From the NCBI GenBank assembly GCA_001464505.1, contig LNEH01000201.1, positions 1 through 40,365 of the forward strand: a stretch of 40,365 bases of DNA. The letters are read 5' to 3'. A model generated the notes under the pieces. It saw only the letters and a list, made by a program, of their open reading frames with translations, made no database searches and had not been told where the DNA came from. The position numbers were made by a program, and so were the translations under genes. This stretch comes from Verrucomicrobia bacterium Ga0077533 (lineage in GTDB: Bacteria; Verrucomicrobiota; Verrucomicrobiia; Opitutales; Opitutaceae). Below are positions 12,142 to 24,423 of this stretch, piece after piece; positions within the stretch are counted from its first letter, which is position 1, and each line of letters begins with the position of its first letter.

Positions 12142-12231
12142 GGAGGGGTGGCAGAGTGGTCGAATGCGCGTGCTTGGAAAGCACGTATAGCCGCAAGGCT
12201 ATCGGGGGTTCGAATCCCCCCCCCTCCGCCA
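12142..12231 (+). tRNA. tRNA-Ser (anticodon GGA)
   Basis: 90 nt with a 7-bp acceptor stem (GGAGGGG/CCCCTCC), discriminator G and an encoded CCA end. The anticodon loop CTTGGAAAG gives GGA, reading UCC/UCU serine codons. The long variable arm TAGCC-GCAA-GGCTA is typical of class II tRNAs, and the T arm reads GGGGGTTCGAATCCCCC. Confidence 0.95.
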
Positions 12232-14752: not shown

Positions 14753-14762
14753 GGCGGATTTT

Positions 14763-14849
14763 TAACCACGAAAAACACGAAATACATCAAATGAAGAACC
14801 AACCAGAACAACGGATTTCTTTCGTGTGTTTGGTGTATTTCGTGGTGAC
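14763..14849. repeat. Inverted repeat in the nuoD-nuoE spacer
   Basis: Left arm TTAACCACGAAAAACACG... from 14763; right arm ...TTTGGTGTATTTCGTGGT ending about 14849. The arms are imperfect inverted copies of a CACGAAATACAC word family also seen in the nuoF-nuoG spacer. The right arm ends about 17 nt before the nuoE ATG. Confidence 0.8.
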
Positions 14850-14866
14850 CGGACTTCTCTGAGTTA

Positions 14867-15361
14867 ATGAATCTCAAACCCACCACGCTCACGCAAATCG
14901 ACGAGGTGATCACCCATTACCCGGTGAAGCGCAGCGCCGTGTTGCCGCTGCTGCACCTCGTGCAGGAGGACGCCGGCTGGATTTCCCCCGAGGCCATCGA
15001 GTGGATCGCGGTCAAGCTCGAGCTGCAACCGATCAACGTTTACGAGCTGGTCACTTTTTATCCGATGTTCCGGCAAAAGCCGATCGGCCGCCGCCACATC
15101 AAGGTCTGCCGCACGCTCTCCTGCGCGCTGACCGGCGGCTACAGGGTCTGCGACCAGTTTCAGAAGGAATTTGGCTGCCACCCCGGCGAGGTCTCCGCCG
15201 ACGGCGAGGTGACCGTTGATTTTGTCGAGTGCCTGGCGAGCTGCGGCACCGGCCCGGTGGTCATGATTGATGACGACCTCCACGAACGCGTCGACGCCGC
15301 CAAGGTGAAGGCCTTGAGCGACCAAATCAGAACGGCGGCCTCGCGCCGCCCGGCTTCATGA
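14867..15361 (+). CDS. nuoE: NADH-quinone oxidoreductase subunit E
   Basis: A 24-kDa-type subunit of the NADH-input module carrying the 2Fe-2S cluster N1a. The protein is 164 aa. Ligands are Cys81 and Cys86 (VCRTLSCAL) and Cys122 and Cys126 (VECLASCGTGP), the thioredoxin-like arrangement. The N-terminal helical part (QIDEVITHYPVKRSAVLPLLHLVQEDAGWIS) is typical. Its stop overlaps the start of the following small membrane ORF (ATGA). Confidence 0.95.
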   Translation: MNLKPTTLTQIDEVITHYPVKRSAVLPLLHLVQEDAGWISPEAIEWIAVKLELQPINVYELVTFYPMFRQKPIGRRHIKVCRTLSCALTGGYRVCDQFQKEFGCHPGEVSADGEVTVDFVECLASCGTGPVVMIDDDLHERVDAAKVKALSDQIRTAASRRPAS

Positions 15362-15672
15362 AAAAATACCGCATCCTCCAGGTTCCGCCGATCCGGTTCG
15401 GCATCGTCCTCGGACTGATCAACGGCGTCGTCGGCATGCTCGTCGCGCCCGTCCTGCTGCTCACGCTCGGCGCCGCCGCCACCGCGGCCGACCTCATGGT
15501 CGCGCCCAAGCTGCTGGGCATTCCCTGGCTGTTCGCCGGCGTCGGGGCGCTGTTCATGCCCTTCATCCACGCCGTCGGCGGCTTCGTGGTCGGCGTCCTG
15601 CTCGCCATGGTCTACAACTTCGCCGCCCGCTGGACCGGCGGCATCGAGATCGTGCTCGACGACAAATCCTGA
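15358..15672 (+). CDS. Small membrane protein inside the nuo operon (unknown function)
   Basis: A 104-aa protein with two clear hydrophobic segments, about 13-40 (FGIVLGLINGVVGMLVAPVL) and 52-85, and a short charged N-terminus (MKKYR). The C-terminus reads VYNFAARWTGGIEIVLDD, which resembles the end of DUF3566-type small membrane proteins (YN..A...GGIE..L); that is pattern recognition by eye. It overlaps nuoE by four bases and precedes nuoF by 41 nt, so it is translated with the NADH-input module. I know of no standard NDH-1 subunit at this position and do not assign a role. Confidence 0.8.
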   Translation: MKKYRILQVPPIRFGIVLGLINGVVGMLVAPVLLLTLGAAATAADLMVAPKLLGIPWLFAGVGALFMPFIHAVGGFVVGVLLAMVYNFAARWTGGIEIVLDDKS

Positions 15673-15713
15673 ACCTGGCTTCCGGCCCCTTCACTCTCAC
15701 TTTCACTTCTGAA

Positions 15714-17075
15714 ATGCCCGCCCCGCCCCAACGCCGGCTGATCTTCGCTCACATCGATGAGCCGGGCTACACCCCTGACCTTCCGTGCTACCTGAAGCAC
15801 GGCGGCTACGCGGTCATGCGGAAGGCGTTCGCCCGCAAACCCGAGGAACTGATCGACGAGGTGAAGAAATCCGGCCTGCGCGGCCGCGGCGGCGCCGGCT
15901 TCTCCTGCGGCTTGAAGTGGACGCTGGTCGACCGCAAGAGCGGCAAACCGGTCTATCTCATCGTCAACGCCGACGAGTCCGAGCCCGGCACCTTCAAGGA
16001 CCGCTACATCATCCACCAGGACCCGCACCAGCTGCTCGAGGGCACGATGATCTCCTGTTTCGCGAACAACGTGAAGCAGGCCTACATCTACATCCGCGGC
16101 GAGATGCCGCAGGGCGCCCGCATTCTGGAAAAGGCCATCGCCGAGGCGCGCGCGGCGAATCTCGTCGGCCGGAACATCCTCGGGACGAACTATAGTTGCG
16201 ACATCTTCGTCCACCGCGGTGCTGGCGCCTACATCTGCGGCGAGGAAACCGGCCTGATCGAGTCGCTCGAGGGCAAGCGCGCCAACCCGCGCATCAAGCC
16301 GCCGTATTTCCCCGCCGTGCTCGGCCTCTACCAGTGCCCGACCATCGTCAACAACGTCGAGACGCTCTGCCACGTGAAGCACATCGCCGACATGGGCGGC
16401 GAGGCCTACACGAGGATCGGCACGCCCAACAACACCGGCACGCGCATCTTCTGCGTCTCGGGCCACGTGCAGCGGCCCGGCTATTACGAATTTGAGTGCG
16501 GCAAGATCACCATGGGCCAGCTGCTCAACGAGGTCTGCGGCGGCCCGCGGCCCGGCCGCACGTTCAAGGCCGTCATTCCCGGCGGTTCCTCCGCCAAGGT
16601 CATGCGCTTTGGCGAGCGCTACAAGGGCAGGCGCAAGGTCGGCGCGGACATGGTCGATTACGATTGGGGCGTCGAGGATGTCCCGATGGATTTCGATTCG
16701 CTCGGCCTGATCGGCACGATGGGCGGCTCCGGCGGCGTCATCGTGATGGACGATTCGGTCAACATGGTCGAGGCGCTGGCCAACATCAACGCGTTCTACT
16801 CGCACGAGAGCTGCGGCCAGTGCACGCCCTGTCGCGAGGGCTCGCTCTGGATGAAGAAGATCACCACCCGCATGGTGCACGGCACCGCGCGCCCCGAGGA
16901 CGCCGCGCTGCTCAAGGGCGTGGCCGACCAGATCCCCGGCCGCACCATCTGCGCCTTTGGCGAGGCCTGCTCGTGGCCGACCCAGAGCTTCCTCGCGAAA
17001 TTTGGGGACGAGTTCAGAAACTATCACGAGACGAAGAAAGCCGCGAAATCCGCCGCGGCTGCGCCCCTGATCTGA
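15714..17075 (+). CDS. nuoF: NADH-quinone oxidoreductase subunit F
   Basis: The NADH-binding subunit with FMN and cluster N3. The protein is 453 aa. The FMN/NADH glycine motif GLRGRGGAGFSCGLKW is at 54-69, NADESEPGTFKDR at 85-97, and GAGAYICGEETGLIESLEG at 169-187. The 4Fe-4S ligands are Cys367, Cys370, Cys373 (ESCGQCTPCREGS) and Cys413 (TICAFGEAC). An insertion near 300-323 (RYKGRRKVGADMVDYDWG) is longer than in E. coli but seen in some other lineages. It is followed by a 121-nt spacer with an inverted repeat. Confidence 0.95.
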   Translation: MPAPPQRRLIFAHIDEPGYTPDLPCYLKHGGYAVMRKAFARKPEELIDEVKKSGLRGRGGAGFSCGLKWTLVDRKSGKPVYLIVNADESEPGTFKDRYIIHQDPHQLLEGTMISCFANNVKQAYIYIRGEMPQGARILEKAIAEARAANLVGRNILGTNYSCDIFVHRGAGAYICGEETGLIESLEGKRANPRIKPPYFPAVLGLYQCPTIVNNVETLCHVKHIADMGGEAYTRIGTPNNTGTRIFCVSGHVQRPGYYEFECGKITMGQLLNEVCGGPRPGRTFKAVIPGGSSAKVMRFGERYKGRRKVGADMVDYDWGVEDVPMDFDSLGLIGTMGGSGGVIVMDDSVNMVEALANINAFYSHESCGQCTPCREGSLWMKKITTRMVHGTARPEDAALLKGVADQIPGRTICAFGEACSWPTQSFLAKFGDEFRNYHETKKAAKSAAAAPLI

Positions 17076-17080
17076 TTGGT

Positions 17081-17183
17081 CACCACGAAATACACCAAAT
17101 ACACGAAATGCAGACAGACTCTCACCCGACCCTCTCTCCAGACCTTTTCGTGTCTTTCGTGTCTTTCGTGTGTTTCGTGGTTA
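17081..17183. repeat. Inverted repeat in the nuoF-nuoG spacer
   Basis: Left arm CACCACGAAATACACC... from 17081; right arm ...CGTGTGTTTCGTGGTTA ending 17183. Each arm repeats a short CACGAAA/TTTCGTG word every 9-10 bases. Same word family as the nuoD-nuoE spacer and as the single arm at 83-99. The right arm ends 13 nt before the nuoG ATG. Confidence 0.85.
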
Positions 17184-17196
17184 AAAAATCTCCGTA

Positions 17197-18960
17197 ATGA
17201 TCGCCCCACCCAAACCCGACCTCGTGACCGTCAACATCGACGGCCAGGACATCGCCGTGCCGAAGGGCACGAACGTGATCGAGGCCGCCCGGCAGCTTGG
17301 GATCGAGATCCCGCACTACTGTTATCATCCGAAGCTCACCGTCTCGGGCAACTGCCGCATGTGCCTCATCGAAATGGGCACCCCAATCATGGATCCGGCC
17401 ACCAGGGCGCCGATCATGGACGCGGCGACGGGCAGGCCGAAGATCAACTGGATCCCGCGCCCGCAGATCGGCTGCGCCACCAACGTCTCGCCCGGCCTGC
17501 ACGTCCGCACCGACTCGCCCCTGGCCCGCGAATGCCGCGAGGGCGTCACCGAGTTTCTGCTCATCAACCATCCGCTCGACTGCCCGATCTGCGACCAGGC
17601 CGGCGAGTGCAAGCTCCAGGAGCACTCCACCGCCTACGGCCGCGGCTACTCGCGCTTCGTCGAGCAGAAGAACGTGAAACCCAAGCGCACCGTGCTCGGC
17701 CCGCGCGTCACGCTCGACGACGAGCGCTGCATCCTCTGCTCCCGCTGCGTGCGCTTCAGCAAGGAGGTCGCGAAGGACGACGTGCTCGGCTTCGTCGACC
17801 GCGGCAGCTACAGCACGCTGACCTGCTACCCGGGCAAACAGCTCAAGAACAATTACTCGCTCAACACGGTGGACATCTGCCCCGTCGGCGCGCTCACCAG
17901 CACCGATTTCCGCTTCAAGATGCGCGTCTGGTTCCTCAAGCAGACGCCCGGCATCGACCCCGAATCCTCCGTCGGCGCCAACACCGAGATCTGGAGCCGC
18001 GAAGGCGCCATTTACCGCATCACTCCGCGGCAGAACGACGCCGTGAATGACACCTGGATGGCCGATTCCGGCCGCGCGCTCTACAAACAGGTGAAGGCGG
18101 CCGACCGCCTGCTCGCCCCTTCGCTCGACGGCGCCACCACCGCCAACGAGATGGCGCTCAAGGCCGTCGCCAATCTGTTGGTGGGGCGGACCGGCCCGGT
18201 CCGCCGCGATGACGATGCCGCGTCCCCGGCGCACCGGGCCGGTGCGCCCTACCAAGGATCCGTCGCGCTCGTCGGTTCCGGCCGCAGCTCGGTCGAGGAG
18301 CAGTTCCTCACGAAGAAGCTCGCCGACGCGCTCAAGACCTCCGCGCACCTCGTCAGCCGGGTGGGGCCGGGCGACAGAATCCTCGTCTCCGCCGACCGCA
18401 ACCCGAACGTCCGCGGTGCGCTTGTCACCGGTCTTATCTCCAAGCTGCCGGCGCAACAGCTCACTTCGCTCGCGGCCGACATCGATGCGGGCAAGGTGAA
18501 GACCGTCGTCTCCGTGGGCGAGGACCTGACCGCCGCTGGTTTGAGCGCCGCGCAGTTGGCGAAGGTTTCGGTCGTCTATCTCGGCACGCACCGCAATGCC
18601 ACGAGCGACGCGGCCAAGGTCGTCATCCCGACGCTCACCGTGTTCGAGAAGTCCGGCACCTTCGTGAACCAGCAGTTCCGCCTCCAGAAATTTGCGAAGG
18701 CCGTCCCCGGCCCGGCGGGCGTCAACGACGACCTGATCACGCTGGCCGAACTCGTGGCCGCGGCGGGCGGCGGCATCATTCCGTTCGAGCTCGGCGCGCT
18801 CTGGGCGGCCATCGCCGCCGAGGTGAAGCCGCTTGCGCTGGTCACCTACGCCAGTCTCCCCGCCACCGGCCTGCTGCTCGACGCCACGCCGTGGGCCGCG
18901 CTGCCCTTCTGCGAAGGTGAGACCCTCCACTTCAAACCCGCCGCAGCCGCGAATGCCTGA
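17197..18960 (+). CDS. nuoG: NADH-quinone oxidoreductase subunit G
   Basis: The 75-kDa-type subunit that wires electrons from NuoF/NuoE toward NuoI. The protein is 587 aa, shorter than the roughly 900-aa E. coli form. 2Fe-2S ligands Cys42, Cys53, Cys56 and Cys93; the His-coordinated 4Fe-4S site His125, Cys129, Cys132, Cys138; the second 4Fe-4S site Cys178, Cys181, Cys184, Cys228. The segment between Cys56 and Cys93 is long and contains a PIMDPATRAPIMDAATGRP duplication. After about 235 a reduced molybdopterin-oxidoreductase-like domain follows. Residues 329-352 are encoded by a palindromic repeat identical over 26 bp to one at 9925-9950, so about 25 residues look like an in-frame repeat insertion in the linker. 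Confidence 0.93.
   Translation: MIAPPKPDLVTVNIDGQDIAVPKGTNVIEAARQLGIEIPHYCYHPKLTVSGNCRMCLIEMGTPIMDPATRAPIMDAATGRPKINWIPRPQIGCATNVSPGLHVRTDSPLARECREGVTEFLLINHPLDCPICDQAGECKLQEHSTAYGRGYSRFVEQKNVKPKRTVLGPRVTLDDERCILCSRCVRFSKEVAKDDVLGFVDRGSYSTLTCYPGKQLKNNYSLNTVDICPVGALTSTDFRFKMRVWFLKQTPGIDPESSVGANTEIWSREGAIYRITPRQNDAVNDTWMADSGRALYKQVKAADRLLAPSLDGATTANEMALKAVANLLVGRTGPVRRDDDAASPAHRAGAPYQGSVALVGSGRSSVEEQFLTKKLADALKTSAHLVSRVGPGDRILVSADRNPNVRGALVTGLISKLPAQQLTSLAADIDAGKVKTVVSVGEDLTAAGLSAAQLAKVSVVYLGTHRNATSDAAKVVIPTLTVFEKSGTFVNQQFRLQKFAKAVPGPAGVNDDLITLAELVAAAGGGIIPFELGALWAAIAAEVKPLALVTYASLPATGLLLDATPWAALPFCEGETLHFKPAAAANA
18181..18253. repeat. Palindromic repeat embedded in frame in nuoG
   Basis: Two hairpins: GGGCGGACCGG/CCGGTCCGCC at 18184-18205, and GGCGCACCGG/CCGGTGCGCC at 18228-18253, separated by 22 bases. 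The second is identical to 9925-9950. Translated it reads VGRTGPVRRDDDAASPAHRA and a few further residues, a low-complexity Arg/Ala/Asp stretch unlike the flanking protein. The frame stays open through it. Confidence 0.85.
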
Positions 18961-18965
18961 TTTTC

Positions 18966-19149
18966 TACACCAAGCTCGCAAAGAAACGCTAAGAACCATG
19001 CAACACACTTTCGACTGTCATTCTGAACGCAGTGAAGAATCCAGGAGCACGCCTGCCGACGGACTTCGTGCTGGATCCTTCGCTTCGCTCAGGATGACAA
19101 GAAACAGTCAGTTTTCCGTTTTCTTCGCTCCCTTTGCAATCTTGGTGTA
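18966..19149. repeat. Nested inverted repeats in the nuoG-nuoH spacer
   Basis: Outer arms: TACACCAAGCTCGCAAAG (from 18966) against CTTTGCAATCTTGGTGTA (ending 19149). Inner element 19016-19099: TGTCATTCTGAACGCAG... against ...TCGCTCAGGATGACA. The inner family recurs in the nuoK-nuoL and nuoL-nuoM spacers and at 33981-34100. The outer right arm ends seven bases before the nuoH ATG. Confidence 0.85.
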
Positions 19150-19156
19150 AACCCGC

Positions 19157-20299
19157 ATGATCGAATTCTGGAACAGTCTCCATCCGCTGCTGCAGGCCGT
19201 CATCAAGGGCCTCGCGGTGATCGGCGTCATGTTCCCGTTCGGCGGGGCCTGCTCGCTGATCGAGCGCAAAATCTCGGCCGCGATGCAGGGCCGCCCGGGC
19301 CCGAACCGCGCGATCCCGTTCTGGTTCGCGTGGGTGCCGGTCATCGGCCCGTTCCTCCAGCGGCTGGGCGTGTTCCACCTCATGGCCGACGGCGGCAAGA
19401 TGTTTTTCAAGGAGGACCCGGTGCCGGGTCACGTGAACAAGTTCTATTTCTACCTCGCGCCGGTCGTCGGCATGATTCCCGCGCTCACAACCGTGACGGT
19501 GGTGCCGTTCGGCGCCTACCTGAACGAGGCCGGCCAGCTCGTCCCGCTCGTGCTGGCCAACCTCGATGTCGGCATCCTTGCGGTGTTCGCCGTGTCGTCC
19601 CTCGGCGTTTACTCGCTGATCCTCGCCGGCTGGTCGTCGAACTCGAAGTATCCGTTTCTCGGCGGCATCCGCGCCTCGGCGCAGCTCATCTCCTACGAGC
19701 TGTCGATGACGCTCTCCGTGCTGCCGGTCTTCCTCTGGGTCAACGCGCCCGGCGGCGAAGGCACCCTGAGCCTTTTCCATGTGGTCGGGGCCCAGGACGG
19801 CGCGTGGTTCGGCCTCTGGATGCCGCTGTGCGCGATCATCTTCCTTGTCGCGCTGTTTGCCGAGACGAACCGCCTGCCGTTCGACATGGCCGAGGGCGAG
19901 GCCGATCTCGTCGGCGGCTTCCACACCGAATACGGCGCGATGAAGTGGGGCCTGTTCTTTGTCGCCGAGTATTCGCACATGCTCATCGGTTCCGGCGTGT
20001 TCGTGCTGCTGTTCCTCGGCGGCTGGAACCCGCTGCCGTGGGTGCCGCTGTCCGACGTGGCCGCGTGGCTGCACCTCGCGGACCAGCCGCTGCTGCTCGG
20101 CCTGCTCTCCATCGGCATTTTCCTCGGCAAGACGCTGTTTTTCATCTTTCTCTTCATGTGGGTGCGCTGGACGGTGCCGCGCTTCCGTTACGACCAGGTG
20201 ATGAAGCTCGGCTGGCAGAAGCTGCTGCCGCTCGCCCTCGGCAACCTCATTTTCTACGCGATCCTTATCGCGTGGCTACAGCCGAAGTTTAGCCACTGA
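19157..20299 (+). CDS. nuoH: NADH-quinone oxidoreductase subunit H
   Basis: A membrane-arm subunit contacting the quinone pocket. The protein is 380 aa with multiple hydrophobic segments. Signatures: ERKISAAMQGRPGPNR near 35-50, GGIRASAQLISYELSM near 173-188, and AETNRLPFDMAEGEADLVGG near 234-253. Its last residues and the TGA stop (20291-20299) lie inside the left arm of the following inverted repeat, so the C-terminus ...KFSH may have been shaped by the repeat. Confidence 0.95.
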   Translation: MIEFWNSLHPLLQAVIKGLAVIGVMFPFGGACSLIERKISAAMQGRPGPNRAIPFWFAWVPVIGPFLQRLGVFHLMADGGKMFFKEDPVPGHVNKFYFYLAPVVGMIPALTTVTVVPFGAYLNEAGQLVPLVLANLDVGILAVFAVSSLGVYSLILAGWSSNSKYPFLGGIRASAQLISYELSMTLSVLPVFLWVNAPGGEGTLSLFHVVGAQDGAWFGLWMPLCAIIFLVALFAETNRLPFDMAEGEADLVGGFHTEYGAMKWGLFFVAEYSHMLIGSGVFVLLFLGGWNPLPWVPLSDVAAWLHLADQPLLLGLLSIGIFLGKTLFFIFLFMWVRWTVPRFRYDQVMKLGWQKLLPLALGNLIFYAILIAWLQPKFSH

Positions 20300-20425
20300 T
20301 TTCACTGATGATCACGGATAGAACCACCAATCTTACGGACCGTCTTGTAGGTGGCGCGCTTGCGCGCCACGTTGCCCGCGAGCGGGCAACCTACACATCC
20401 GTGTCCATCCGTGCCATCCGTGGCT
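20291..20425. repeat. Nested inverted repeats in the nuoH-nuoI spacer
   Basis: Outer arms: AGCCACTGATTTCACTGATG from 20291 against ...CCATCCGTGGCT ending 20425, with repeated ACGGAT/ATCCGT words. Inner element 20347-20393: GTAGG...CCTAC enclosing two perfect small hairpins (GGTGGCGCGC/GCGCGCCAC and GTTGCCCGC/GCGGGCAAC), a three-way-junction shape. The outer left arm contains the nuoH stop codon. Confidence 0.85.
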
Positions 20426-20440
20426 AAAAACTGATTTCCC

Positions 20441-20986
20441 ATGCCCTACGTCGTCGAACGCAAACCCCTGACGCTCTCGGAGCGGCTCTATTTCCCGCAG
20501 ATCCTCGCGGGCATGCGGGTCACGCTGAAGCACCTGTTTGCGCCGAACGTCACGATGGAGTATCCCGAGCAGCGTCCGGCCATCCCGGTCGGCTACCGCG
20601 GCGTGCCGACACTGGTGAAGGATCCGCATGGCCGCGAGAAATGTGTCTCGTGCCAGCTCTGCGAGTTCGTCTGCCCGCCCAAGGCCATCCGCATCACGCC
20701 CGGCGAGATCCCCGCCGACCAGGCCGACCGCGCCCATGTCGAAAAGGCCCCCAAGGAATTCGAGATCGACATGCTCCGCTGCATCTACTGCGGCCTGTGC
20801 CAGGAGGTCTGCCCCGAGGAGGCCATCTTCCTGCAGAACCAGTATTCCCTGACCGGCTACACCCGCGCCGAGATGGTCAACGACAAGGCCCGGCTCTACG
20901 AGCTGGGCGGCACGCTGCCCGACCGGCATTTCAAGTGGGACAAGAAAAAATCCGCCGCCGAAGCGCGCGGCCATGCCGCGCACTGA
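20441..20986 (+). CDS. nuoI: NADH-quinone oxidoreductase subunit I
   Basis: The ferredoxin-like subunit carrying clusters N6a and N6b between NuoG and NuoB. The protein is 181 aa. The two CxxCxxCxxxCP motifs are Cys68, 71, 74, 78 (KCVSCQLCEFVCPPKAI) and Cys114, 117, 120, 124 (RCIYCGLCQEVCPEEAIF). The N-terminal amphipathic part (LSERLYFPQILAGMRVTLKHLF) is the usual membrane-contact helix. It is followed by a 180-nt spacer with inverted repeats. Confidence 0.95.
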   Translation: MPYVVERKPLTLSERLYFPQILAGMRVTLKHLFAPNVTMEYPEQRPAIPVGYRGVPTLVKDPHGREKCVSCQLCEFVCPPKAIRITPGEIPADQADRAHVEKAPKEFEIDMLRCIYCGLCQEVCPEEAIFLQNQYSLTGYTRAEMVNDKARLYELGGTLPDRHFKWDKKKSAAEARGHAAH

Positions 20987-21165
20987 AAAACCGAAGGACT
21001 GAAAAGCTGAAGCACCGAACCCACGTCATGTTTATCAACCACCTTGCTTCCCGTTCCTGCCCGCCCATGAAGCGAGCCGGAGTTCCGGGCCTGCCGCCCC
21101 TTTGGTCTCAAGGCATTTCCGGCTCGGTATTTCAGCCCTTCAGCTCTTCAGTCTTTCCGCCTTTC
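20987..21165. repeat. Inverted repeat in the nuoI-nuoJ spacer
   Basis: The left arm from 20987 (AAAACCGAAGGACTGAAAAG...) and the right arm ending 21165 (...CAGTCTTTCCGCCTTTC) are imperfect inverted copies built on CTGAAG/CTTCAG words. The 100-base centre (about 21020-21120) holds no clear gene or second palindrome. The right arm ends directly before the nuoJ ATG. Confidence 0.75.
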
Positions 21166-21166
21166 G

Positions 21167-21673
21167 ATGTCTGACACGCTCTTCCTCATCCTCTCGGTCC
21201 TGACCGTCGCCATGGCGCTGCTCGTCGTGCTGAACAAGAACGCCGTCAACGCCGCCATGTGCCTGCTGCTCTCGCTCGCCGGCCTGGCCGGCCTGTTCGT
21301 GCTGCTTGACGCCCCGTTGCTGGCCTTCGTGCTCATTTTGGTCTATGCGGGCGCGGTCGTCGCGCTGTTCCTCTTCATCATCATGCTGCTCGACACCACG
21401 CCCGGCAGCTTCAAGCCGTTCAAGCCGCTGACCATCGCCGCCGCCGTGCTCGGCGCCGCGTTGCTGGGCCTCGGCATCTGGTCGCTGTTCGGTCGCGCCG
21501 TGCTGCCCGACGCGCCGGCGTCCGTGCCGGTCCCGACCATGAAACACCACGCCGAGATGCTCTTCACCACCTACCTGCTGCCGGTGCAGGTCGTCGGCTT
21601 CCTGCTCCTGATCGCCATGCTGGGCGTCATCGTGCTCAGCAAGAAATACACCGCGCCGGAGGACGCGAAATGA
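21167..21673 (+). CDS. nuoJ: NADH-quinone oxidoreductase subunit J
   Basis: A 168-aa membrane-arm subunit with about five hydrophobic helices. The conserved segment LAGLAGLFVLLDAPLLAFVLILVYAGAVVALFLFIIML corresponds to the pi-bulge helix region of the family (TM3). Position between nuoI and nuoK is standard. The predicted product ends KKYTAPEDAK. It is followed by a 100-nt spacer with an inverted repeat. Confidence 0.93.
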   Translation: MSDTLFLILSVLTVAMALLVVLNKNAVNAAMCLLLSLAGLAGLFVLLDAPLLAFVLILVYAGAVVALFLFIIMLLDTTPGSFKPFKPLTIAAAVLGAALLGLGIWSLFGRAVLPDAPASVPVPTMKHHAEMLFTTYLLPVQVVGFLLLIAMLGVIVLSKKYTAPEDAK

Positions 21674-21680
21674 AACCTGC

Positions 21681-21770
21681 AAGTAGCGAACATCGAGTAG
21701 CGGGTAGTGAGCATTCGTTGTTCGCGGCTTTCCCGGCTACCCGCTACCCGCTACCCACTACTCACTACTG
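21681..21770. repeat. Inverted repeat in the nuoJ-nuoK spacer
   Basis: Left arm from 21681 (AAGTAGCGAACATCGAGTAG...) with TAGCG/TAGTG words, right arm ending 21770 (...CTACCCACTACTCACTACTG) with the complementary words. A single arm of the same family is at 9208-9237 upstream of sufS. The right arm ends three bases before the nuoK ATG. Confidence 0.8.
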
Positions 21771-21773
21771 CGT

Positions 21774-22106
21774 ATGATGACCCCCTTCCTCGCCGCCGCC
21801 CCGGTCTACGGCCTCCCGTCCTACCTGCTGGTCAGCGCGCTGCTGTTCGCCATCGGCTTTTTCGGCGTGCTGCTGCGCAAGAACACCCTGGTGATCTACA
21901 TGTGCCTCGAGCTGATGCTGCTGGCCTCGACGCTCGCGCTCGTGGCCTTCTCGAAGTTCAACGGCACGCTCGACGGCAACGTCTTTGTGTTCTTCGTGCT
22001 CACCATTGCGGCGGCCGAGGTCGCCGTCGGCCTCGCCATCATTGTCGCGCTGTTCCGCCAGCGCCACACCGTCCAGGTCGAGGAATTGAACCAACTCAAA
22101 CATTAA
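21774..22106 (+). CDS. nuoK: NADH-quinone oxidoreductase subunit K
   Basis: A 110-aa Mrp-related membrane-arm subunit with three transmembrane helices. The conserved glutamates lie in [12 protein letters not shown] (first) and [13 protein letters not shown] (second), which are part of the proton path. Two consecutive ATGs (21774 and 21777) are possible starts. The stop TAA (22104-22106) is part of a TTAACCACG repeat arm that begins the next spacer. Confidence 0.94.
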
Positions 22107-22292
22107 CCACGAATTTCACGGATGTTCACGGATACCAAACAATCCCCCGATGCCTGTCATCCTGAGCGGAGCGAAGGATCCAGCAGGATATTCGTTTGTG
22201 GCCATGACACTGGATTCTTCGCTTCGCTCAGAATGACATTCTGGAATAAACGACTTGGCATTCCGCACTCCGCATTCCGCACTCCGCAATTC
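22102..22292. repeat. Repeat cluster in the nuoK-nuoL spacer with unmatched outer arms
   Basis: The left arm ATTAACCACGAATTTCACGG (from 22102) carries CACGGAT words. The inner element 22155-22238 is a TGTCATCCTGAGCGG.../...CGCTCAGAATGACA inverted repeat. The right arm 22257-22292 (GGCATTCCGCACTCCGCATT...) belongs to a different word family, so the outer arms do not pair with each other. The right arm ends five bases before the nuoL ATG. Confidence 0.75.
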
Positions 22293-22297
22293 GGCCC

Positions 22298-24172
22298 ATG
22301 ACGATGTTGCAACACGCCATTTTGGTTCTCCTGCTGCCGCTGGCCTCGGCGGTGGTGATCGCCCTGTTCCTGCGTCGGCAGGGCGCGGTCGCCTCGTGGC
22401 TCTCCACCGCCACGGCCGGCGCCATCGCGGCGATCTCGATCATCCTCCTGCTGCATGGCGAACGCTTCGAAAACTCGATCGAGTGGCTGCGCTTCGGCGA
22501 CTTCGCCGTGTCGCTGGGCATCAAGTTCGACGACCTCGCGGCGCTGATGCTCTTTATCGTCGGTTGCGTCGGCTTCCTGATCCATGTCTTCTCGCTGGGC
22601 TACATGCACGACGACGCGGCGCGGGCGCGGTTCTTCGGCGGCCTGTCCATCTTCATGTTCTCAATGATCGGCATCGTGCTCGCCGACAACCTGTTCATGA
22701 TTTTCATCTTCTGGGAGCTGGTCGGTTTCAGTTCCTGGCTGCTGATCAACCACTATCACCACAAGCAGTCGGCGGCCGACGCCGCGAAGAAGGCCTTCAT
22801 CGTCAACCGCGTCGGTGACTTCGGCTTCCTGCTCGGCATCATCATGTGCTACTGGCTGAACGGCACCGTCAATCTCAGCGAGCTGGCCCGGCTCGGCGAC
22901 ACCCACGCGCTGGTGTTCAGCCTCGCCCTCCCGCTGCTGCTGTTCTGCGGCGCGGTCGGCAAGTCCGCCCAGATGCCGCTGCAAGTGTGGCTGCCCGACG
23001 CGATGGAGGGCCCGACACCCGTCTCCGCCCTCATCCACGCGGCCACCATGGTCGCGGCCGGCATCTACATGCTTTGCCGCATCAGTGTCCTCATGGTCCC
23101 CGATGTGCTCACGCTGATCATGTGGGTCGGCACGGCCACCGCGCTCTACGCCGCGCTCTGCGCCGTCGTGCAGCGCGACATCAAGAAGGTGCTGGCCTAC
23201 TCGACGCTTTCCCAGCTCGGCTGCATGGTCGCGGCGTTCGGCCTGGGCTCGAATCTTCCCGGGCATGATGGCGGCGGGACTGCGGTGCTGGCCGCGGGTG
23301 GGGCGGCCGCGATGTTCCACCTGACGACCCACGCCTTCTTCAAGGCGCTGCTCTTCCTGGGCGCCGGTTCGGTCATCATGGGCTGCCACCACGAGCAGGA
23401 CATCTTCAAGCTGGGCGGGCTGCGCACAAAGATGCCCGTGACCTTCATCACCTTCACGATCGGCGTGCTGGCGATCATCGGCCTGCCGGGTCTCGCGGGC
23501 TTCTTCTCGAAGGACGCCATCCTCTACCTCGCGATGGAGAAGAACACCGCGGTGTTCGCCATCCTCGCCTTCACCGCCGTGCTGACCTCGTTCTACATGG
23601 TCCGCCTGTGGAAGATCACCTTCCTGGGCGAAGCCCGTTCCGACGCGGCCAAGCGCGCCCACGAAAGCGGCCTCACCATGACGCTGCCGTTGATCATGCT
23701 TGCGGTGCTCTCGGTTGCCGGCGGCTACTCGGGCGTGTTCGGCCAGCTGGCCGGCTCGGTGGCGGAACTCGTGCCCGAAGCCCACGGTTCGGCCCACACG
23801 ATCATCCTGATGGTCTCGCTCGCCGTCATGACGGTCGGCGCCGGCTCGGCGCTGCTTTTCTACAAGACGGCCGCGACCGACACCCTCGAGGAGCAGGCCC
23901 GCGTGCTCTTCGCCGGGCTGACCTGGCTCAAGGAGTCGTTCGACCGGCTCTACGATTACTACGTGGCCAAGGTGCAGCAGCGTTTCGCCATGCTGCTGAA
24001 CTTCCTGGAGCAAATCTTCCTGGCCGGACTTATCATCCGCGGCTTCGCGGGAATTGTCGGCATGATCGGTTACGGCGCCCGGGCGCTCCACACCGGCAGC
24101 CTGCACGCCTATGTTTTCTGGTTTCTGTTTGGCGCCGCGCTCCTCTGGGCCTTCGCCGCCGGGGTTTTTTAA
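22298..24172 (+). CDS. nuoL: NADH-quinone oxidoreductase subunit L
   Basis: The distal antiporter-like proton-pumping subunit. The protein is 624 aa. Signatures: FIFWELVGFSSWLLINHYHH near 131-150 with the conserved Glu, FIVNRVGDFGF near 167, and QVWLPDAMEGPTPVSALIHAATMVAAGIYML near 229-259. The C-terminus has the long-helix region (from about 525: EEQARVLFAGLTWLKESFDRLYDYYVAKVQQRF) followed by a last hydrophobic helix. The stop TAA is part of a TTAACCAC word opening the next spacer. Confidence 0.95.
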   Translation: MTMLQHAILVLLLPLASAVVIALFLRRQGAVASWLSTATAGAIAAISIILLLHGERFENSIEWLRFGDFAVSLGIKFDDLAALMLFIVGCVGFLIHVFSLGYMHDDAARARFFGGLSIFMFSMIGIVLADNLFMIFIFWELVGFSSWLLINHYHHKQSAADAAKKAFIVNRVGDFGFLLGIIMCYWLNGTVNLSELARLGDTHALVFSLALPLLLFCGAVGKSAQMPLQVWLPDAMEGPTPVSALIHAATMVAAGIYMLCRISVLMVPDVLTLIMWVGTATALYAALCAVVQRDIKKVLAYSTLSQLGCMVAAFGLGSNLPGHDGGGTAVLAAGGAAAMFHLTTHAFFKALLFLGAGSVIMGCHHEQDIFKLGGLRTKMPVTFITFTIGVLAIIGLPGLAGFFSKDAILYLAMEKNTAVFAILAFTAVLTSFYMVRLWKITFLGEARSDAAKRAHESGLTMTLPLIMLAVLSVAGGYSGVFGQLAGSVAELVPEAHGSAHTIILMVSLAVMTVGAGSALLFYKTAATDTLEEQARVLFAGLTWLKESFDRLYDYYVAKVQQRFAMLLNFLEQIFLAGLIIRGFAGIVGMIGYGARALHTGSLHAYVFWFLFGAALLWAFAAGVF

Positions 24173-24400
24173 CCACTGCTATTTCAACCACAGATTAACA
24201 CAGATATACACAGATGATCCCGAACCGGAAAAAATCCCGCACAACCTGTCATTCTGAGCGCAGCGAAGAATCCAGCAGGATGGCCGCTGGCGTGTGTGAT
24301 TCTGGATCCTTCACTTCCTCCTTCGCCAAGGCTTCGGAGGACAGGTCGTTCAGGATGACGGATCTGCCGTATCTGTGTGTATCTGTGTTCATCTGTGGTT
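24173..24400. repeat. Nested inverted repeats in the nuoL-nuoM spacer
   Basis: Outer arms: ACCACAGATTAACACAGATA from about 24187 against ...TATCTGTGTTCATCTGTGGT ending 24400, with an ACACAGAT word repeated every 10 bases. Inner element 24247-24359: TGTCATTCTGAGCGCAGCG... against ...GTTCAGGATGAC. This is the longest nuo spacer (251 nt); no ORF of interest was seen in it. Confidence 0.85.
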
Positions 24401-24423
24401 GTTTTTCCTCTTTCCGCTGATTC

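Follow-up and report, generated by a model that had tools for sequence, protein, structure and literature searches.

Inserted hairpins that fill the long spacers of a bacterial nuo operon are probably tolerated as translated relay linkers, short open frames that keep the neighboring genes translationally coupled. The operon lies in a 40,365-nucleotide stretch, hereafter the window, of Verrucomicrobia bacterium Ga0077533 (contig LNEH01000201.1, C201 in our numbering), whose draft genome of 2.93 Mb is 82.75% complete. The original prediction, made from the letters alone, had named five short nuo junctions and given lengths for eight long nuo spacers, and these lengths were reproduced exactly. 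The long spacers are D/E (114 nt), F/G (121), G/H (196), H/I (141), I/J (180), J/K (100), K/L (191) and L/M (251), and the short junctions are B/C (14 nt), C/D (1), E/orf (-4), orf/F (41) and M/N (9). Inverted-repeat material was found in 8/8 spacers of 100 nt or more, with I/J the weakest, and the tight junctions contained no intergenic repeat scoring 16 or higher, both as had been predicted.

Relay frames in the nuo spacers

A relay frame was defined as a frame that opens with ATG, has 8 codons or more and ends within -25 to +8 of the next start, and whose own start may overlap the upstream stop; a spacer with such a frame was counted as bridged. The end window was widened from -12 to +8 to its present size after the first result, and the effect was seen in all three windows tried. 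The nuo set contained 87 filled spacers of 80-330 nt from 21 genomes. All spacers below 80 nt were left out, as were those above 330 nt (G014 F/G, G021 F/G, G022 D/E, F/G and J/K, and G018 I/J) and the mis-parsed junctions G012 orf/F and G013 and G017 M/N. Spacers with z of at least 3 in a gapped self-complement test were classed as hairpin spacers. The frame control consisted of removing 1, 2 or 3 nt from the middle of each spacer, and the antisense strand served as a second control. The bridged spacers are given below, followed by the counts after removal of 1, 2 and 3 nt and on the antisense strand.

All filled nuo spacers: 75/87; 27, 35, 76; antisense 33
Hairpin spacers: 58/67; 22, 26, 59; antisense 27
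Hairpin spacers, one per allele cluster: 34/39; 14, 16, 34; antisense 18
Hairpin spacers with GTAG: 17/18; 4, 4, 17; antisense 5
Spacers without a hairpin: 17/20; 5, 9, 17; antisense 6
Hairpin spacers within the genus: 51/52; 17, 21, 51; antisense 18

The openness is frame-specific. Adding 1 or 2 nt within the genus left 22 and 17 spacers bridged, and in a paired test the real nuo spacers prevailed over their 1-nt deletions by 37 to 1 (p 2.8e-10), or by 20 to 0 with one spacer per allele. When the end window was set to -12 to +8, 55/87 spacers were bridged, compared to a mean of 15.4 and a maximum of 26 in 200 dinucleotide shuffles. A window of -4 to +4 gave 41, and 13, 18 and 40 after removal of 1, 2 and 3 nt. 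The frames end at +4 in 19 of the 58 bridged hairpin spacers and at +1 in 10, with the rest elsewhere in -25 to +8.

A conserved peptide was rejected as the reason for the open frames, since substitutions in 38 pairs were flat across codon positions (0.184, 0.189 and 0.161) and 166/216 indels were not multiples of 3. An N-terminal extension of the next gene was also rejected because in-frame extension is rare, occurring in 4/87 spacers against 12 and 27 after deletion. The TGTCATYCTGAGCG palindrome was read in the same frame in all seven nuo spacers where the pattern was found (7/7). The density of ATG in the nuo spacers was 12.8 per kb, compared to 12.2 in shuffled sequence.

All eight window spacers contain a relay frame (8/8), with the H/I frame ending at -13 and the I/J frame at +8. 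The features, all on the + strand, are as follows.

14753..14866, +, nuoD/nuoE spacer: periodic hairpin of CACGAAA words, 14765-14791 pairing with 14820-14846
14791..14862, +, D/E relay open reading frame (ORF): 23 codons, ends 4 nt before the nuoE start; the nuoD stop is overlapped by a GTG in the same frame
17076..17196, +, nuoF/nuoG spacer: periodic hairpin of CACGAAA words, 17082-17108 pairing with 17155-17181
17108..17197, +, F/G relay ORF: 29 codons, stop overlaps the nuoG start (TAATG)
18961..19156, +, nuoG/nuoH spacer: outer arms at 18966-18983 and 19132-19149 enclosing a TGTCATTCTGAACG palindrome (19016-19099)
18998..19150, +, G/H relay ORF: 50 codons, stops 6 nt short of the nuoH start
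20300..20440, +, nuoH/nuoI spacer: arms of CACTGAT/CACGGAT at 20288-20319 (including the nuoH stop) and 20397-20428; GC-rich double hairpin in the loop
20308..20427, +, H/I relay ORF: 39 codons, stops 13 nt short of the nuoI start
20987..21166, +, nuoI/nuoJ spacer: left words CTGAA, right words TTCAG
21028..21174, +, I/J relay ORF: 48 codons, stops 8 nt into nuoJ
21674..21773, +, nuoJ/nuoK spacer: GTAGCG hairpin, arms 21682-21707 and 21737-21762
21670..21777, +, J/K relay ORF: spans 35 codons between the ATGA at the nuoJ stop and that at the nuoK start
22107..22297, +, nuoK/nuoL spacer: unpaired left words CACGAAT/CACGGAT, TGTCATCCTGAGCG palindrome 22155-22238, unpaired right words CTCCGC
22122..22301, +, K/L relay ORF: 59 codons, ends at the nuoL ATGA
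24173..24423, +, nuoL/nuoM spacer: CACAGAT hairpin, 24185-24215 pairing with 24371-24401; its loop contains a TGTCATTCTGAGCG palindrome
24214..24420, +, L/M relay ORF: 68 codons, ends 3 nt before the nuoM start
18178..18255, +, inverted repeat in the nuoG reading frame: GGTGGGGCGGACC .. CCCTACC, in frame; a REP-like double palindrome resembling the G/H spacer elements of relatives

Inverted-repeat pairs were listed in D/E, F/G, G/H, H/I, J/K, K/L and L/M. The CTGAA/TTCAG arms of I/J are visible by eye and pair in the predicted fold (RNA-fold z -4.0); its gapped self-complement z of 2.5 is under the cut-off of 3. RNA-fold z for the eight window spacers ranged from -2.8 to -8.1 (60 shuffles each). 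The claim that arms are built of short repeated words needed correction. The left periodic words of K/L (CACGAATTT-CACGGATGTT-CACGGAT) have no complementary right arm, its right-hand CTCCGC words have no left arm, and its hairpin is the non-periodic TGTCATYCTGAGCG palindrome. Word repeats are weak in G/H, and H/I holds a nested GC-rich double hairpin that starts GTAGGTGGCGCGC. D/E and F/G had been thought the only spacers to share a family; this was incorrect, as the TGTCATYCTGAGCG palindrome is common to G/H, K/L and L/M.

Pfam families of nuo subunits were matched by nine of the ten reading frames scanned, nuoI solely through general 4Fe-4S families, and the small orf between nuoE and nuoF matched no Pfam family. 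nuoB, nuoC, nuoM and nuoN, which were outside the Pfam scan, are presumably those genes, judging from their translations and the gene order. A tRNA gene (12142-12228) immediately precedes nuoB, which opens this run of nuo genes (no search was made for nuoA), and Rfam at the gathering score gave nothing in the window except a tRNA. nuoG is 75 nt longer in the window than in the relative G018.

The same junctions in relatives and in other operons

The nuo junctions were compared in 20 relatives of the window genome. Most of them were tight (-4 to 20 nt) or carried a filler of about 95-250 nt; some were intermediate (33-62 nt) and a few were longer. Insertion is polymorphic, and at any one junction the hairpin was absent in many relatives. 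At D/E, the CACGAAA hairpin was present in the window, G012 and G009, a GTAGCGAG hairpin was present in G018, G014 and G017, and there were just 12 nt in G010, G003 and G016. The upstream stop often lies within the left arm (TAA followed by CCAC.., or CACTGA followed by AAAGCTGAA), and the 3' flanks are recognizably conserved. The proposal of insertion targeted at gene junctions was thereby supported, as the same junctions were mostly tight or filled in relatives, often by another family, and ordinary shared conservation of the spacers was not seen among them.

A tree of concatenated nuo proteins placed the window genome and G018 as sisters. Sharing of spacers was called at a cut-off of 0.72, with unrelated pairs scoring about 0.62-0.71. 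The D/E spacers of these sisters scored 0.62, the level of unrelated pairs, while those of the window and G009, whose four-fold sites are 64.6% identical, scored 0.88. F/G (0.71, near the cut-off), K/L and L/M were also unlike between the window and G018, and H/I and L/M were unlike between G012 and G004. Since sisters can carry unrelated spacers and more distant species share one, the nuo spacers are replaced or exchanged locus by locus, with little trace in the flanking genes. Support for gene-conversion tracts into those genes was weak, as third-position identity near the junctions rose by only 0.017 (160/5000 permutations).

The G/H spacers of G003, G018, G004 and G021 (L044, L057, L058 and L055) measure 215-250 nt and have weak folds. 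Those of G003, G018 and G004 contain frames of 69-81 codons and no hairpin, and could be true small genes.

The ATP-synthase (atp), dcw and cox clusters were examined after the nuo result, the atp set comprising 20 genomes, 18 of them shared with the nuo set. The atp junctions were filled by hairpins of families similar to those of nuo, and bridging was nearly absent. Only 2/23 filled atp spacers were bridged, both of them B/E spacers of native length, and a second annotation of the wider atp region gave 6/44, with 2/16 for hairpins. Unfilled atp D/C and F/H junctions are short in some genomes. ATG was nearly five-fold rarer in the atp spacers (L264-L283) than in shuffled sequence (2.0 against 9.4 per kb), as if starts had been purged. 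Spacers of 439-455 nt occur at atp A/G in L280, L274 and L281 and at atp G/D in L271, L265 and L275, where each of the three spacers contains a 137-codon frame that stops at the next start. These may represent one element at two junctions.

In these other clusters, frame openness is limited to junctions found tight in relatives. Across atp, dcw and cox, 17/22 filled spacers at junctions of at most 20 nt in the reference (G003 or G016) were bridged, with 9 and 9 after deletion. This compares to 5/32 at a reference spacing of 21-60 nt and 22/90 above it, together 27/122 (Fisher p 1.1e-6), and the tight non-nuo junctions prevailed over their 1-nt deletions by 8 to 0. When junctions were sorted by median unfilled spacing over all relatives, 32/67 were bridged at 20 nt or less (18 and 17 when frame-shifted), 0/28 at wider spacing and 12/49 among those unclassified. 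By cluster, dcw was bridged at 25/48 junctions (14 and 14 after deletion). A tight junction seems necessary but not sufficient outside nuo, and the nuo operon of the genus seems to be the extreme case.

Families and distribution of the elements

Two kinds of filler were found in nuo, namely double hairpins resembling repetitive extragenic palindromic (REP) elements, which are a known kind, and periodic-word hairpins resembling the STRR hairpins of cyanobacteria. Some of the GC-rich double hairpins, found in several nuo spacers, have GTAG feet. GTAGGG, GTAGGT or GTAGCGG occurred in 18/67 hairpin nuo spacers, leaving 49/67 without these strings. Six Y1_Tnp matches were obtained, and GC-rich palindromes lay beside three of the six loci, on both sides of L238 and L242 and on one side of L241; these three are likely RAYT loci. 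No periodic-word hairpin was seen closely flanking a Y1 locus within the first 3000 bases of each of the six. This mixture, with no transposase link seen for the periodic-word hairpins, gives no support to the earlier suggestion of one insertion mode. One transposase for all families was likewise unsupported, as the Y1 loci with flanking repeats carry GC-rich palindromes only.

The repeats are strongly intergenic rather than as common inside genes, in agreement with the junction proposal. In 508 kb of the window genome, 68/79 inverted repeats were mostly intergenic and 10 wholly genic, and 21.6% of bases were intergenic; in 417 kb of G012, 64/73 were mostly intergenic and 7 wholly genic, at 12.9% of bases (intergenic shares from our own crude gene calls). 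One block-shuffled copy of each genome gave 0 inverted repeats. A strict exact-word scan of both genomes gave 22 matches, 12 mostly intergenic and 8 wholly genic by crude gene calls; Markov shuffles gave 0-1 and 0-2, and the result is indicative only.

For intergenic repeats that lack GTAG feet, whether periodic or otherwise, a mostly purine left arm was seen in 43 vs 9 cases in the window genome and 31 vs 7 in G012, compared to 5 vs 6 and 4 vs 14 for those with GTAG feet. Purine-left and pyrimidine-right arms as the cause of the open frame were rejected by the antisense and block-shuffle controls.

Scanning a sequence collection for CCACNNATNNACACNNATNNACACNNAT gave at least 119 stretches, compared to about 7 or 8 expected by chance in the whole collection by our own arithmetic. 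Among the matches listed, 80 titles span, on our own reading, about 18 phylum-level groups, with isolates including Scytonema, Pedobacter and Wenzhouxiangella. The same NN occurred in all three words in 68/148 of the matches listed, where column shuffling expects 12.1 (maximum 22 in 1000 shuffles). A downstream inverted partner was present in 81 of the 138 listed matches with enough sequence and an upstream partner in 9, although both arms of one hairpin may count twice. Local generation of the words by slippage was unsupported, since families recur across species and one superfamily across phyla. It is possible, and we propose it only tentatively, that the periodic-word hairpins form a class of small dispersed elements, as yet without a name, which occur in about 18 phylum-level groups (among the matches listed) and were domesticated in coupled operons as translated relay linkers, with the host keeping inserts open in the frame ending at the next start.

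The statement that no named family matched was in part incorrect. Passages of PMC3733652 describe GTAG REPs in Opitutus terrae, and passages of PMC2670836 describe heptamer-repeat hairpins between hupS and hupL in cyanobacteria. The literature searched contained neither the exact arm words tried nor, when searched with them, peptide fragments of the TGTCATYCTGAGCG element, and nothing was found there that combined REP with coupling.

Interpretation and comparison with known systems

PMC10666635 reports that reinitiation was nearly abolished at a spacing of about 20 nt in six tested gene pairs and that genes for subunits of heteromeric complexes are enriched in short overlaps. Where a junction is tight in relatives, its genes are probably coupled by translation, and because coupling is near nil at about 20 nt, an insert of 100-250 nt in nuo should break it unless translated across. 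We propose that small palindromic repeats insert at junctions that overlap or measure at most about 20 nt in relatives. The relay frame would open close to the upstream stop or else within the left arm or the loop, cross the hairpin and stop at or just before the next start, often in ATGA or TAATG. The ribosome would be passed on and the operon would stay coupled. The peptide would be immaterial, with only frame and openness counting, and selection, not the insertion process, would set the frame.

Several observations weigh against this proposal. Translation of the frames is deduced from sequence patterns. Only 25/58 bridged hairpin spacers have their earliest bridging ATG within 10 nt of the upstream stop (median 15), so some frames may initiate on their own, possibly like leader cistrons. 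The relay ATG of D/E, F/G, G/H, I/J and L/M in the window lies 32-41 nt from that stop, too far for ordinary reinitiation judging by PMC10666635, and separate initiation may therefore be needed. Four other genera of the family showed no excess in hairpin nuo spacers (7/15 bridged; 5, 5 and 8 after removal of 1, 2 and 3 nt; antisense 9). atp D/C measures 5-12 nt in four relatives, yet its filled copies were unbridged in 10/10 cases. About half of the spacers in the other clusters that are tight by median spacing are unbridged, and the 22 tight by reference represent 8 gene pairs, one of which gives 10. Junctions above 20 nt in the reference showed a weak excess of their own (14 to 3 in the paired comparison with 1-nt deletion), and cox overall showed none (13/52 against 11 and 11). 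There was also no excess at 60 other co-directional hairpin junctions of the window genome and G012, with crude starts (17 against 15 and 13; antisense 19). From this result and the mostly unbridged atp junctions, bridging as a general property of hairpin junctions was rejected.

The main rival is that selection only purges frames that overrun the next start, so that the survivors end at the start with no positive role. The rarity of in-frame extensions relative to the deleted copies fits this explanation, and the ATG-poor atp spacers show that unwanted starts can be purged. However, frames that were only harmful would predict the same ATG loss in nuo, where ATG occurs at its shuffled rate, and the presence of a bridging frame in all but one of the hairpin nuo spacers of the genus is also difficult to explain by removal alone. 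We consider purging as the whole explanation rather unlikely.

Another possible explanation is that the hairpins stabilize the RNA or act behind each stop codon as barriers to segmental decay, a role suggested for REPs and other stem-loops on the 3' side, and that the frames are a by-product. The hairpins do extend from stop to start, fold z was below -2 in 65/87 nuo spacers, and stem-loops favored the 3' side of genes in 40 genomes according to PMC1590033. Such a role does not predict the difference between removal of 1-2 and 3 nt, that between sense and antisense, or the confinement to junctions tight in relatives, and the hairpin is absent at a given junction in many relatives; we regard it as improbable. 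Slightly less credible still is neutral mobile DNA that inserts at junctions since insertion into genes is usually lethal, with a frame pattern due to chance or composition. This would account for the mixed families, different families at one junction, the tree-incongruent alleles and the strong intergenic bias, but controls matched or close in composition (antisense, shuffled and frame-offset) reach only about a quarter to half of the observed count.

If the relay-linker proposal is true, bacterial operons can lengthen their spacers without losing coupling, and apparent junk hairpins in a core respiratory operon become a testable statement on how coupled operons survive insertions. Filled and tight junctions, and bridged and unbridged operons, would serve as natural replicates for asking whether ribosomes scan long spacers or need overlaps. 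Small spacer ORFs may then matter through being translated, without a functional peptide.

The closest known systems share some of these features. Mycobacterial interspersed repetitive units (MIRUs) are short intergenic repeats whose own ORF is coupled to the next gene at -4 spacing, which is thought to allow insertion with little effect on expression (passages of the review PMC12548453, citing Supply 1997). By this description, the nuo relay frames may be similar in linking a repeat's ORF to the next gene, with 19 and 10 of 58 ending at +4 and +1 and the rest elsewhere in the end window. They differ in using many unrelated palindromic families, REP-like dimers as well as periodic-word hairpins, in their unconserved peptides and frames, and in the organism. 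MIRU is not known to be built as an inverted repeat, unlike the hairpins at z of at least 3 in 67/87 filled nuo spacers.

The GTAG REPs described for Opitutus terrae in the passages of PMC3733652 include intragenic insertions. The GTAG-footed double hairpins of several nuo spacers and the GC-rich palindromes by half of the Y1 loci resemble this REP/RAYT system, unlike the nuo hairpins without the GTAG strings sought and the periodic-word hairpins, which were not seen closely flanking a Y1 locus. The nearest description found is the STRR heptamer repeat of filamentous cyanobacteria, in which tandem short words make up a hairpin inside an operon, between hupS and hupL, and for which transcript stability or translational coupling was proposed (passages of PMC2670836). 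The nuo words differ by description in having periods of about 7-10 (by eye), in falling into several families and in carrying an open relay frame that was compared with controls. Bacterial miniature inverted-repeat transposable elements (MITEs) that carry ORFs (RPE, RU-1/ERIC and RU-2) are, in the passages of PMC2229807, palindromic elements of 100-200 bp with open frames fused in frame to genes. They are alike in being palindromic with open frames; the nuo frames, in contrast, rarely extend the next gene and end near its start. The pattern is real and unusual. The kinds of element and the trick are known, and it is their combination that is new; in the nuo operon of this genus the frame-specific signal is sharp.

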